From Verrucomicrobiota bacterium (lineage in GTDB: Bacteria > Verrucomicrobiota > Verrucomicrobiia > Opitutales > Opitutaceae), in NCBI GenBank assembly GCA_947471035.1, contig CANIWJ010000006.1, positions 1-61,076 of the forward strand: 61,076 bases of DNA, in the 5' to 3' direction. The first letter of the stretch is position 1. Each line of letters begins with the position of its first letter. This document shows, in pieces, positions 9,042 to 39,920 of this stretch. A model generated the notes under the pieces. That model was given only the letters and a program-made list of their open reading frames with translations, was not told the origin of the DNA and did not search any database. A program made the translations under genes and the position numbers.

Positions 9042-10400
9042 TTACAGCCCACCCATGTCGGCGAACTGGTCGGTCGGGGCGCGATCGCCACCGTCCGGCC
9101 AGAGGATCATGCCGGCGCCCACGGTGGCGTTGGTAAACTCGTCGATCAGGATAAAGCTGCCCGTCGTGCGGTTGCGTTTATAGGGGTCGATCATCAGCGG
9201 CGTGGCGGTGCGCACATGGATGCGGCCGATGTCGTTCATGCCCACGCTCACGTCTTCGGTTTGTTTGCGGAGGGTGTTGATATCGACCTTGTAGCGGACG
9301 GCCTTGAGCGCGCACTTGGTCTCGCGGGTGGTGTGGCGCAGGATGTATTTGCCTGCCGGATTCAGCGGTTTGGGCGAGAACCAGCAAACCATCGCCTCAA
9401 TGTCTTGGGTGACGACCGGCTGGTTGTTGAGCTTGGCGAAAAGGTCGCCGCGCGAGCTGTCGATCTCGCGGTCCAGGGTAATGGCGACCGACATGGGCGC
9501 GAAGGCCTCGGCCAACTCGCCCTCGGGACCGTGAATGCTCTTGATCTTGGCGGGCAGGCCGGAAGGCAGGGAAACGATGTCGTCGCCGGGCTTGAAGACG
9601 CCGCCCGCAACGCGTCCCGCGAAGCCGCGGAAATCGTGATGCGCGTCGTTATTGGGCCGGATGACGGTCTGGATCGAGAAGCGCGGGTCCACGTGGTTGT
9701 GGTCGCTGCCGATGTAAACGGTTTCGAGGGTGTAGAGCAGCGCGCCGCCTTGATACCAGGGAGTGCGGTCGGACTTATCAACGACGTTGTCGCCGTGCAG
9801 AGCGGAGATGGGTATGAACTTGATGTCGGGGATATTCAGGCGGGAGGCGAACTCGCTGAATTGGGCGACGATCTCATTAAAGCGGGCTTCGGAGAAATCG
9901 ACCAAGTCCATCTTGTTGACCGCCACCACGACGTGCGGAATGCCGAGCAGAGAAGCGATGAAGGAGTGGCGGCAGGTCTGCTCGATCACGCCCTTGCGGG
10001 CGTCGATCAGGATAATGGCGAGGTTGGCGGTTGAGGCGCCCGTCACCATGTTGCGCGTGTATTGGATATGGCCGGGCGTATCGGCTATGATGAACTTGCG
10101 CTTGGGCGTGGCGAAGTAGCGGTAGGCGACGTCGATGGTGATACCTTGCTCGCGCTCGGCACGCAGGCCGTCGGTGAGGAGCGCAAGGTTGAGGTTGTCC
10201 TCGCCGCGCTGCTCGGTGACGCGTTCCAGGTTTTCCAGGGTGTCCTCGAAGATCGCCTTGGAGTCGTAGAGCAGGCGGCCGATGAGGGTGGATTTGCCGT
10301 CGTCCACCGAACCTGCGGTGGTGAAACGCAGGAGGTCCATGGAGAGGTAGTGTTCGTCAGTGTGGAAAGGAGCAGTAGCGGAGGAAGATGCGGCGGACAT
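9042..10400 (-). CDS. cysN: sulfate adenylyltransferase subunit 1 (GTPase) CysN
   Basis: Large GTPase subunit of ATP sulfurylase; GTP hydrolysis drives formation of APS from sulfate and ATP by CysD. The elongation-factor-like G domain is intact: G1 GSVDDGKST near residue 30, switch region GITIDVAYRYF, G3 DTPGHIQY, G4 NKMDLV. EF-Tu-like beta barrels follow. At 452 aa there is no fused APS kinase, consistent with a separate cysC upstream. The stop faces the gspE-like stop only 24 bp away. It is separated from cysD by 508 bp containing an inserted GxxExxY gene, although cysD and cysN are normally adjacent. Confidence 0.95.
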   Translation of the reverse strand: MSAASSSATAPFHTDEHYLSMDLLRFTTAGSVDDGKSTLIGRLLYDSKAIFEDTLENLERVTEQRGEDNLNLALLTDGLRAEREQGITIDVAYRYFATPKRKFIIADTPGHIQYTRNMVTGASTANLAIILIDARKGVIEQTCRHSFIASLLGIPHVVVAVNKMDLVDFSEARFNEIVAQFSEFASRLNIPDIKFIPISALHGDNVVDKSDRTPWYQGGALLYTLETVYIGSDHNHVDPRFSIQTVIRPNNDAHHDFRGFAGRVAGGVFKPGDDIVSLPSGLPAKIKSIHGPEGELAEAFAPMSVAITLDREIDSSRGDLFAKLNNQPVVTQDIEAMVCWFSPKPLNPAGKYILRHTTRETKCALKAVRYKVDINTLRKQTEDVSVGMNDIGRIHVRTATPLMIDPYKRNRTTGSFILIDEFTNATVGAGMILWPDGGDRAPTDQFADMGGL

Positions 10401-10419
10401 TTGAAGAAAAAATAGGAGG

Positions 10420-10459
10420 TTTAACGCAGAGGCACGAAGGCGCAGAGGGCGCAGAGTTA
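10420..10459. repeat. left inverted arm of the GxxExxY insert
   Basis: A 40-nt arm starting TTTAACGCAGAG and made of four 8-9-nt units of the form CGCAGAGG. Aligned without gaps to the reverse complement of 10861-10900 it matches at 30 of 40 positions. It begins 19 bp from the cysN start codon. Confidence 0.8.
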
Positions 10460-10473
10460 GGAAGAAAAAAAGA

Positions 10474-10854
10474 TTAGAGATGATTAACGATGCGGTGGAT
10501 GCCGTCTTTAACTAGGCGCTCACCGAAATTGATCACGAGGCCAAGACGTAGGCCAGTAAGACGCAGGTAGGTCAGCATCTGGGCATCGAAGATTTTATTG
10601 TATTCGTTGACGGCCTTGGGATCGACAATGACCAGATTATTGACGCGCAGATCGAGCCGAAGGGGGGTGGAAAGTAGCTTACCCTTGTAACGAAGCGGAA
10701 CCTGCTGCTGACGTTCTACAATAAGGCCCCTCAAAGTAAGTTCTTCGGCCAAGGCCTCTTCATAAACACTTTCCAACAAACCCGGGCCACCCATGTGCCG
10801 ATGCACCTCAATGGCTGCATCAACAATGATTTGGCTGAGCTGGTTTTCCTCCAT
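10474..10854 (-). CDS. GxxExxY protein (PD-(D/E)XK nuclease-like family)
   Basis: Small protein of the GxxExxY family, which is grouped with the PD-(D/E)XK nuclease fold (PDDEXK_3); its role is unknown. The name motif is present as GLLESVYEEAL near residue 25. The putative nuclease core is RLDLRVNNLVIVDPKAV (about 67-83), giving D...D-x-K instead of the more common D...E-x-K. FDAQMLTYL and LGLVINFG complete the family pattern. At 126 aa the length is typical. It is cotranscribed in direction with cysD and cysN but unrelated to sulfate activation, and lies inside inverted repeat arms, so it looks inserted. Confidence 0.88.
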   Translation of the reverse strand: MEENQLSQIIVDAAIEVHRHMGGPGLLESVYEEALAEELTLRGLIVERQQQVPLRYKGKLLSTPLRLDLRVNNLVIVDPKAVNEYNKIFDAQMLTYLRLTGLRLGLVINFGERLVKDGIHRIVNHL

Positions 10855-10860
10855 GGTTCG

Positions 10861-10900
10861 GAACTTTGCGATCTTTGCGTCTTGGCGTCTTTGCGTTAAA
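10861..10900. repeat. right inverted arm of the GxxExxY insert
   Basis: A 40-nt arm ending in TGCGTTAAA. Read on the minus strand it begins TTTAACGCAAAG and consists of four near-identical 8-nt units of the form GCAAAGAC. It ends 8 bp before the last base of the cysD stop codon. Confidence 0.8.
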
Positions 10901-10908
10901 TTATCGCC

Positions 10909-11814
10909 TTAGAAATACCCCGCCTTCTTGCGGTCTTCCATGGCGGACTCGGAGCGTTTGTCATCCGCGCGGGTGCCGCGCTCGGTCACGCGGGCCGAGG
11001 CGACTTCTTGGATGACTTCGGCCAAGGTGGCGGCGGGAGACTCGACCGCGCCGGTGCAGGTGCTGTCGCCGACGGTGCGGTAGCGCACAACGCGCTCTTC
11101 GTATTTTTCGCCCTCAAGCAAGGTGATGTACGGCGACTCGGCGAGGAGCACGCCGTTGCGATTTACGATGCGGCGGGTGTGGCTGAAGTAGATCGACGGA
11201 ATGCGGAGTTTTTCGCGGGCGATGTATTGCCACACGTCCATCTCAGTCCAGTTAGAGAGCGGGAAAACGCGGAAGTGTTCGCCGAGGTTTTTGCGGCCGT
11301 TGAACAAGTTCCAAAGCTCGGGGCGTTGGTTTTTGGGGTCCCATTGACCGAACTCATCGCGGTGGGAAAAGAAACGCTCTTTAGCGCGGGCTTTTTCCTC
11401 GTCGCGGCGCGCGCCACCGAGGCAGGCGTCGAATTTGAACTCTTCGATGGTATCGAGCAGGGTGATGGTCTGGAGGCCGTTGCGCGAGGGATTCGGGCCT
11501 TTCTCCTCCTGGCAGCGACCGGCCTTGATCGAGTCTTCCACGTAGCGAACGACCAGGCGTGCACCGATATCCTGGGCGAACCAATCACGATACTCGATGG
11601 CCTCGGCGAAGTTGTGCCCGGTGTCGATGTGCACCAAGGGAAACGGAATGCGTGCGGGGGCGAAGGCTTTTTGCGCGAGCCGGGCCATCACGATGGAGTC
11701 CTTGCCGCCGGAAAACAGCAGCGCCGGGCGCTCAAACTGGGCGGCGACTTCGCGCAGCACAAAGATCGCCTCGTGTTCGAGTTGGGCCAAGTGGGTCAGG
11801 TTATAGGAGGACAT
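10909..11814 (-). CDS. cysD: sulfate adenylyltransferase subunit 2 CysD
   Basis: Catalytic subunit of ATP sulfurylase, a PP-loop (adenine nucleotide alpha hydrolase) enzyme that adenylates sulfate to APS. The PP-loop SGGKDS is at residues 35-40, and the later motifs LGGARRDEEKARAKER and the C-terminal GRGTRADDKRSE-like segment (TERGTRADDKRSESAME) are characteristic. At 301 aa it matches the E. coli enzyme (302). It follows cysC by 42 bp; its normal partner cysN is displaced by the inserted GxxExxY gene. Confidence 0.96.
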   Translation of the reverse strand: MSSYNLTHLAQLEHEAIFVLREVAAQFERPALLFSGGKDSIVMARLAQKAFAPARIPFPLVHIDTGHNFAEAIEYRDWFAQDIGARLVVRYVEDSIKAGRCQEEKGPNPSRNGLQTITLLDTIEEFKFDACLGGARRDEEKARAKERFFSHRDEFGQWDPKNQRPELWNLFNGRKNLGEHFRVFPLSNWTEMDVWQYIAREKLRIPSIYFSHTRRIVNRNGVLLAESPYITLLEGEKYEERVVRYRTVGDSTCTGAVESPAATLAEVIQEVASARVTERGTRADDKRSESAMEDRKKAGYF

Positions 11815-11856: not shown

Positions 11857-12495
11857 CTAGCGCGACGCAGAGGGCAGCTGAATGCGGGGCAAAACCGCCG
11901 CATGCAAGGCCGCGAGGCAGGCCTCGGGAGCAAGGGTCTCGGTATCGAGCACCAGGGTGCCGCGATCCTCCGCGTCGGGCGTGAGTAGCGGAGGCTCGAA
12001 GGCGGAATCCTTCCCGGTAAACTGCCCCACCCCGTTGGCTGCGGCCTTGGCGTAAAGTCCCTTGGGGTCACGTTGCGCGCAGGTCGCGAAACTGGCTTGC
12101 ACGTAAACCTCCAAGAGGTCGTCGGTCCCGATGATACCCCGGGCCAATTCACGCAAACTCCGGAGCGGCGTGATGAAGGAGCACAGGGTAACGAGTCCCG
12201 CGTGGGCATGGAGCTTGGCCACTTCGGCGACCCGGCGAATGTTCTCCGAGCGATCCGCATCGGAAAACCCGAGCCCGCGATTGAGCCCACTGCGAATGTT
12301 ATCCCCATCCAGAAGCTGAGTGGCAAACCCCTCGGCGTGCAGGCGACGCTCCAGCGCAATAGCCAAGGTGCTTTTGCCCGAACCCGACAAACCATAAAGC
12401 CAGATCACCTGCCCGCGTTGCCCCAGCCGTTGCTGCTTGTCCGAGCGCGCCAAAACGCGGTCGAAGATCGGGTGAAGATTCGCGGCAGCGTCCAT
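11857..12495 (-). CDS. cysC: adenylylsulfate kinase CysC
   Basis: Phosphorylates APS to PAPS with ATP. The Walker A motif GLSGSGKST is at about residues 35-43, followed by LLDGDNIRSGLNRGLGFSDADRSENIRR, which binds APS, and the family motif KGLYAKA. At 212 aa it is a stand-alone kinase. It is first of the cysC-cysD-cysN group. No PAPS or APS reductase and no sulfite reductase are in the window, so the PAPS may serve assimilation elsewhere or sulfation. Confidence 0.95.
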   Translation of the reverse strand: MDAAANLHPIFDRVLARSDKQQRLGQRGQVIWLYGLSGSGKSTLAIALERRLHAEGFATQLLDGDNIRSGLNRGLGFSDADRSENIRRVAEVAKLHAHAGLVTLCSFITPLRSLRELARGIIGTDDLLEVYVQASFATCAQRDPKGLYAKAAANGVGQFTGKDSAFEPPLLTPDAEDRGTLVLDTETLAPEACLAALHAAVLPRIQLPSASR

Positions 12496-39831: not shown

Positions 39832-39920
39832 TTTAACGCAAAGACGCAGAGCCGCAGAGAAAAAGCATTTCCCTCTTATGGGTTACGTCATGCTCTGCGC
39901 CTTGGCGTCTCTGCGTTAAA
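39832..39920. repeat. gene-less inverted-arm element related to the GxxExxY insert arms
   Basis: The left arm begins TTTAACGCAAAG (39832) and the right arm ends CTGCGTTAAA (39920); they match as inverted repeats over about 30 nt with a handful of mismatches, separated by about 26 nt. They share the terminal TTTAACGCA and the 8-nt unit (GCAGAGAC/GCAAAGAC type) with the arms at 10420-10459 and 10861-10900, but there is no gene between them. It lies between the AraC gene and the cupin gene, just beyond both stop codons. Confidence 0.75.

Follow-up and report, generated by a model that had tools for sequence, protein, structure and literature searches.

The locus at the centre of this study raises a simple question: why do cysD and cysN stand 508 nt apart, and what is the gene that lies between them? 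In the window (the whole stretch of 61,076 nt analysed here), cysD (10909..11814) is the upstream and cysN (9042..10400) the downstream neighbour of an open reading frame (10474..10854) for a 126-aa GxxExxY / PDDEXK_3 protein, and all three genes lie on the minus strand. Both the separation and the common orientation had been noted in a preliminary description, and both agree with the coordinates; the assignment of the ORF also held, with TIGR04256 (E 3.4e-38, 130.6 bits against a cut-off of 35) and PF13366 (E 6.2e-36, 123.7 bits against a cut-off of 22) being the only profiles that it matched. On the whole, we lean towards the view that the block at 10420-10900 represents a single copy of a short mobile DNA element, and that its GxxExxY protein recognises the repeated units of the arms and acts in a manner similar to the REPIN/RAYT systems. 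In this proposal, the binding, cleavage and copying of the arms, and the role of the protein as mover, are all inferred. The finding is real, and it is broader than was first apparent from the window sequence.

The element proper is a 481-bp block within the spacer, which begins 19 nt from the start codon of cysN and ends 8 nt from the stop codon of cysD. The two arms had been placed at 10420-10459 and 10861-10900, with a length of 40 nt; they are indeed inverted and 75% complementary, but their actual extent is 44 nt each. The arm near cysN, on the 3′ side of the gene (10420..10463, plus strand), reads TTTAAC and then CGCAGAG, CACGAAG, CGCAGAG and CGCAGAG, and that near cysD, on the 5′ side (10857..10900, minus strand), reads TTTAAC and then CGCAAAG, CGCCAAG, CGCAAAG and CGCAAAG. 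The ends TTTAACGCA are shared by both arms of this copy, as had been described, but they are not one fixed sequence; the unit varies between copies. Similarly, each window arm contains four C[AG]C.[AG]A. units at steps mostly of 8 nt, which fits the earlier account of four near-repeats of an 8-nt unit, but elsewhere the conserved unit is a 7-mer, CRCNRAN, with spacers mostly of 1-3 nt. When the 5′ flank of the gene was aligned locally with the reversed 3′ flank, the window element scored 22, a value above the 95th percentile (18) and below the 99th (25) of swapped flanks from 93 loci, and one reached by none of 300 shuffles.

In the rest of the 61 kb, unit arrays were found only in the two arms of a gene-less (solo) palindrome with similar units (39832..39920, without strand), which is predicted to form a long hairpin (z about -7); the four arrays compare with an average of 0.6 over 20 shuffles of triplet blocks. 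That palindrome is itself nested in a repeat of ~150 bp which recurs in the genome and has ATACC...TTGGTAT-like ends, a mobile repeat within a mobile repeat. The genome as a whole (3.64 Mb, 232 contigs) has four GxxExxY genes, all of them with inverted arms (flank scores of 28, 22, 24 and 25) and each with a different unit, namely, CGCAAAG at the window locus and CACAGAG, CGCTAAA and CGCGGAT at the others. The other three genes lie between housekeeping pairs (gatA-gatB, nadE-hemL and serS-tilS). Gene-less copies are frequent: with at most one mismatch, TTTAACGCANAGNC occurs 39 + 39 times in this genome (4 + 3 for a reversed control), largely as convergent pairs spaced by up to about 100 bp, and an AACC-initial arm pattern occurs 30 + 26 times (control, 0).

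We did not accept the 27 TTTAACGCA solo palindromes taken from the fetched loci as independent insertions, since most of them have common outer flanks and form part of a larger MITE-like repeat. Their position inside that repeat would also suit a different explanation, in which another transposase (an HUH Y1/RAYT enzyme or one of the MITE type) moves arms and solos alike, and the GxxExxY gene is a passenger or selfish hitchhiker; for reasons given below, we regard this as unlikely, if by no means negligible. Strong hairpins were predicted for four solo stretches (z -4.3 to -7.2), as might be expected if the arms were regulatory or mRNA-processing structures, the GxxExxY proteins and the four-helix-bundle proteins discussed below being nucleic-acid-binding factors of a regulon that is not mobile. 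However, the predicted folding of the full 508-nt spacer does not surpass that of its shuffles (z -1.2), and in at least three cases in this genome one palindrome was seen by eye to be nested within another, neither of which is easily accommodated by a regulon. We consider that explanation quite unlikely.

What kind of protein might act on such arms? Among 19 aligned members of the family, E28, Y31, K80, N109 and F110 do not vary and D68 is almost constant, and the (D/E)xK motif of the window protein is D78-P-K80. An AlphaFold2 model built from the 19-sequence input had a pLDDT of 96.4. The only PDB match of this model below E 0.001 in Foldseek was SSO0001 (4ic1; E 4.3e-4, TM 0.47, rmsd 12.9), which we take to be a Cas4 protein, and a weaker match was lambda exonuclease (E 0.038). 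By its predicted fold, D68 and D78-x-K80, the GxxExxY protein meets the criteria of the PD-(D/E)XK nuclease superfamily; nuclease activity itself is inferred. A sequence search for solved relatives gave nothing significant, T7-type endonuclease I appearing at E 0.64-0.84. The protein is kept by purifying selection, as judged from a dN/dS of 0.03-0.19 in 9 of the 11 pairs tried (two, of unequal length, were skipped). None of the PADLOC anti-phage defence models was matched at E 0.1, and at E 1e-5 the protein was found in none of 50,697 phage records and in 6 of 72,556 plasmid records. To our knowledge, the nuclease family to which it belongs is not known as a transposase. We found no known function for GxxExxY proteins in the literature; the term GxxExxY is used in PMC8934634.

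The preliminary description had named arms at other GxxExxY genes as support for an element of this kind, and the same design does bound most of those examined. We read 93 of 121 GxxExxY matches in 38 genomes of relatives (those left out were mostly lower scoring), together with 26 further loci from the window's phylum and a cross-phylum set made up of the best 80 of 582 pattern matches (about 14 bacterial phyla, as assigned from record titles, and one archaeal record), of which 77 had flanks. At the 93 loci, the median score of the flank alignment was 24, compared with 9 when flanks were swapped; the swapped 95th percentile was exceeded at 73 loci and not at the other 20. In the direct orientation, a tenth of the 93 loci scored at least 22.8, as would follow where whole palindromes stand on both sides of the gene, an arrangement seen by eye in L123 only. 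At that locus, between gyrB and gyrA of genome G006, each side of the GxxExxY gene carries what appears to be a complete palindrome, not a single arm.

The swapped-flank null proved unfit for the cross-phylum loci, where it is inflated by CACAGAG-like units common to unrelated elements. With it, 45 of these 77 loci (from the best 80 of 582 matches) exceeded the 95th percentile and 30 the 99th; the values for the 26 further phylum loci were 18 and 5. Because of this inflation, we tested for arrays against random stretches of the same loci. An array of three or more units on the expected strand was present in at least one flank at 142 of 196 loci and in both flanks at 92, compared with 12 and 0 of 712 control pairs (all of these totals include the set drawn from the best 80 of 582 matches). 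The corresponding numbers were 68 and 50 for the 93 loci of relatives (controls, 2/170 and 0; opposite strand, 9 and 3), 18 and 9 for the 26 further phylum loci (controls, 2/114 and 0; opposite strand, 3 and 1), and 56 and 33 for the 77 cross-phylum loci, again from the best 80 of 582 (controls, 8/428 and 0; opposite strand, 22 and 7). The link between arms and gene is a cross-phylum one, although the single archaeal locus (L271, also among the best 80 of 582) had no clear arms.

Across these loci, an arm begins frequently with AAC (which precedes 104 of 232 arms), or with CAC or GCC, followed by the 7-mers at steps mostly of 8-10 nt. Units within one arm agree at their variable positions to 95, 74, 93 and 95% (234 three-unit arms), and those of the two arms of one element are identical at frequencies of.93,.80,.92 and.96, against.53,.38,.50 and.46 between elements (92 elements). 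Spacer identity between arms is.53 against.36, and the spacing pattern is equal in both arms of 82 of the 92 elements, compared with 21% of random pairs. Since the units match within and between arms while the spacers drift, the unit has the appearance of a repeated recognition site, an inference from sequence alone. Judged from the sequences, pairing alone needs neither a first unit equal to the second and third nor conservation limited to the units; repeated sequence-specific contacts would. The same point weighs against regulatory or processing structures, for which pairing would suffice without repetition inside an arm. More in keeping with a regulon is the tendency of the elements towards spacers between co-directional genes: the neighbours are co-directional at 99 of 166 scorable elements, and the GxxExxY gene points the same way in 84 of these 99 (neighbours were scored from longest ORFs, a source of noise when GC content is high). 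For upstream neighbours encoded on the same strand, the median distance between their stop codon and the beginning of the protein domain is 70 nt (n=123), or approximately the length of an arm; the window copy, 8 nt from the cysD stop codon and 19 nt from the cysN start codon, conforms to this arrangement.

Arms and gene also go together at the level of whole genomes. AACC-type arms and the gene are both present in the same 30, and both absent from the same 8, of the 38 relatives; in G035, the single arm is the gene's own. A survey of 383 genomes from the phylum, each with a completeness of 90% or more, showed the gene in 247. At least one arm was found in 227 of these 247 and in 39 of the 136 gene-negative genomes, and at least three in 203 and 16, respectively, a difference that holds in four size bins; the mean number of arms per genome was 33 in the gene-positive and 1.6 in the gene-negative group. 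There are exceptions, in that 20 of the 247 lack the AACC pattern and gene-negative genomes with arms reach 41, and the p value of 2e-43 is uncorrected for descent, gene-negative genomes being clustered in some genera. Within the window's family, all 32 gene-positive genomes have at least three arms and all 6 gene-negative genomes have 0-2. Similarly, in 24 genomes reached through named records, the median number of CACNGAG arms was 33 where the source locus has CACNGAG (n=14) and 3.5 where it does not (n=10; p 0.0098), and a reversed-pattern control gave 0 in all 24. There are exceptions here as well: two genomes among the 14 had only 1 and 2 arms, and one among the 10 had 34. These groups were set by computed consensus; grouping by eye, in which two loci differ, gave p 0.0025.

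Such co-occurrence alone cannot exclude a Y1 mover, because Y1_Tnp (PF01797) tracks the arms almost as well, being matched in 28 of the 30 relatives with arms and in 1 of the 8 without. A transposase of that kind would be at home here also in the light of a verrucomicrobium rich in GTAG-type REPs (reported in PMC3733652). However, despite the co-occurrence, none of 24 Y1 loci had a three-unit array over about 1.8-3.3 kb, whereas 68 of the 93 GxxExxY loci had one within 160 nt, and it is on this ground that we favour the GxxExxY protein as the partner of the arms. Arms also occur without a Y1 match in G002 (79% complete) and in G035, and Y1 without arms in G029.

A further point against another transposase is that the unit follows the GxxExxY protein. 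Protein similarity predicts unit similarity (Mantel r 0.52, reached by 0 of 2000 permutations) among the 154 of 196 elements that have a defined word, the best 80 of 582 cross-phylum matches being included in the set, and the correlation also holds between loci without matching outer flanks. Given that protein and unit diverge together, paralogues in one genome appear to serve different units. When gene arms and solos of a single genome were compared for exact words, the correspondence was clear in G015 (77% for the own set, as against 9 and 12% for the two sets of the other genomes); in G000 it was not specific (40%, against 23 and 40%), and in G024 it was lacking (28%, against 9 and 37%). 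A recognition code was sought at the residue after the invariant E (S29 in the window protein): where this residue is S or T, base 7 of the unit is G in 97 of 97 elements, compared with 7 of 57 for other residues. On the tree, the link was reached in 0 of 2000 runs with both characters simulated and in 5 of 2000 with one simulated against the observed other. As the correlation reflects mainly one deep split of the tree, we reduced this code to a hint.

The window junction itself differs among relatives. Of 26 cysD-cysN loci fetched, 24 were readable, and 22 had spacers long enough for the arm test. At 10 of the 24, the aligned ends lie 14-86 nt apart (distances that include the stop codon and any unaligned start; two of the 10 are contig-end fragments), in line with the expectation of adjacent genes in close relatives. 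It had been proposed that the idea of an inserted element would fail if all relatives carried the gene here; among readable junctions, only G004 shares it. Inverted arms beyond all 300 shuffles were present in 9 of the 22 spacers and in none of the other 13. The occupants are varied. G000 and G004 have the GxxExxY element, and G010 has a solo palindrome built of CGCAAAG-like units; palindromes of other types stand in G006, G007, G011 and G013, and G005 (L149) and G009 (L220) each have a four-helix-bundle gene flanked by arms of its own. In G027, the spacer also holds a four-helix-bundle gene, with no arms beyond those of the shuffles. Other junctions behave similarly. Between gyrB and gyrA, G006 has a GxxExxY gene and G014 a four-helix-bundle element that lies within an apparent GxxExxY-type arm remnant; between gatA and gatB, several species have GxxExxY and G023 (L210) has a four-helix-bundle gene; and between atpD and atpC, five species of one genus (L340, L356, L357, L358 and L359) have, by eye, apparently four kinds of palindrome.

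Turnover and nesting at junctions are the behaviour of insertion elements, and together with the gene-less copies they support the transposon-like, repeat-driven element first proposed for this locus; that the protein is the mover and acts on the arms is inferred. That all five species appear by eye to have some palindrome at atpD-atpC is what a regulatory function might predict, but the kind of palindrome and its unit vary at one junction between close species, and 13 of the 22 cysD-cysN spacers tested have no inverted arms beyond shuffles. One could also envisage homing, in which the protein cuts gene-less palindromes and its gene is copied in by recombination between homologous arms, so that the solos are targets, not offspring. 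The alternative occupants of one junction, the four-helix-bundle element in an apparent arm remnant and the predicted PD-(D/E)XK fold would all be compatible with this; nevertheless, homing still requires another route by which new junctions are reached, and we think it very unlikely. There are also observations against mobility as such. By eye, no target-site duplication was seen at cysD-cysN or atpD-atpC, where spacers are too diverged, or around nested copies, and no clean empty site is available. The gatA-gatB and nadE-hemL elements are syntenic across species and genera, from which it follows that the residence of some elements can be long, and many copies, being syntenic between species and in some cases between genera, look more like resident genes than like an active transposon.

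The arms of the four-helix-bundle genes deserve separate comment. Usable flanks were available at 29 of the 30 TIGR02436 loci that we read (L200-L229, a subset of the matches). The median arm score of these 29 was 19, compared with 9 when flanks were swapped, and the swapped 95th percentile was exceeded at 24. Most of the units, which are 7-9 nt long, belong to other types (TCAGGAG, TAGCGAG, ACCAATG and others), and the arrays lie outside rRNA; two loci in G031 carry CACAAAG, which fits the GxxExxY grammar. Comparable arms at a second gene family are again a point for a transposase other than the GxxExxY protein, and it may be that one shared factor serves both. The intervening sequence (IVS) is bordered by complementary ends, and its mobility is hypothetical, according to PMC4990558. 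The GxxExxY element resembles an IVS in having a small ORF between inverted ends, and four-helix-bundle genes use the same junctions as GxxExxY; it differs in its protein family and in its site, which is cysD-cysN and not 23S rRNA. Four-helix-bundle arms outside rRNA suggest a wider version of the IVS idea, either as a parallel system or through one shared mover.

Returning to the mobile element that we favour, we envisage that the units would be recognised by the GxxExxY protein, either by itself or within a complex, and that the protein would be a small PD-(D/E)XK nuclease of the Cas4/lambda-exonuclease kind. It might nick or cut the arms, probably once two inverted arms have paired as a cruciform or hairpin, whereupon host replication or repair would copy the element, with its gene or as arms only, into spacers between co-directional genes. 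Arm-only palindromes would then be non-autonomous copies used in trans, as is thought for REPINs and RAYTs. In REPtrons, the RAYT gene is usually single copy and housekeeping-like (PMC8266576). The likeness lies in a gene that adjoins short inverted palindromic repeats and in paired gene-less copies throughout the genome. In contrast, the GxxExxY element encodes a PD-(D/E)XK protein and no HUH Y1 transposase, and its arms consist of three or four iterated 7-mers with free spacers; of 225 arms, only 5 have GTAG/CTAC in the 12 nt that adjoin them on the outer side, and only 4 have it inside. In the absence of an HUH enzyme and a GTAG tag, the element is not a REPtron, though it may resemble one in its working. 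With MITEs it shares short, gene-less, intergenic copies with inverted ends, but GxxExxY-type copies have internal arrays instead of plain terminal repeats, and inspection by eye showed no target duplication. A likeness in kind, without a comparison of sequences, exists to the multicopy nucleotide sequences of Geobacter genomes, which are also intergenic repeat families, palindromic or with short direct repeats, and for which the accessible part of the description mentions no gene partner (PMC2996986).

Ends made of 7-nt repeats, found in numerous bacterial genomes both around the gene and in its absence, suggest a little-described kind of mobile DNA. We found no literature on GxxExxY genes with such arms in a search that did not extend to preprints, most subscription papers or supplements. 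The present results offer a testable role for a common protein family and, for the large class of palindromes between genes of several phyla, a partner. Were the protein the mover, a single small PD-(D/E)XK nuclease would by itself drive a mobile system, with parallels to Cas4 and RAYT biology; such a system would provide natural protein/word pairs from which a DNA-recognition code might be read, and would help to explain the large differences in operon spacers between close species. A bolder proposal, which we put forward only tentatively, is that GxxExxY enzymes run a cross-phylum form of mobile palindromic DNA unrelated to RAYT/REPIN. Here, the nuclease, akin to Cas4, would recognise a reiterated word of 7 nt by means of a code that can change, in which, for instance, the residue that follows the E of GxxExxY pairs with the final base; it would thereby distribute arrays of the word between operon genes, while four-helix-bundle (S23/IVS) proteins would run a parallel system.

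As for the cys genes themselves, a pattern scan of the cysD-cysN spacer revealed no promoter or terminator patterns, and an Rfam search of 10000-11300 gave no match. The preliminary description had considered that the operon may still be transcribed through the insertion; transcription reading through this copy into cysN is plausible, as a putative event only. Upstream of cysD and on the same strand, the ORF at 11857-12495 (minus strand) has, by eye, the look of an adenylylsulfate kinase (cysC-like).
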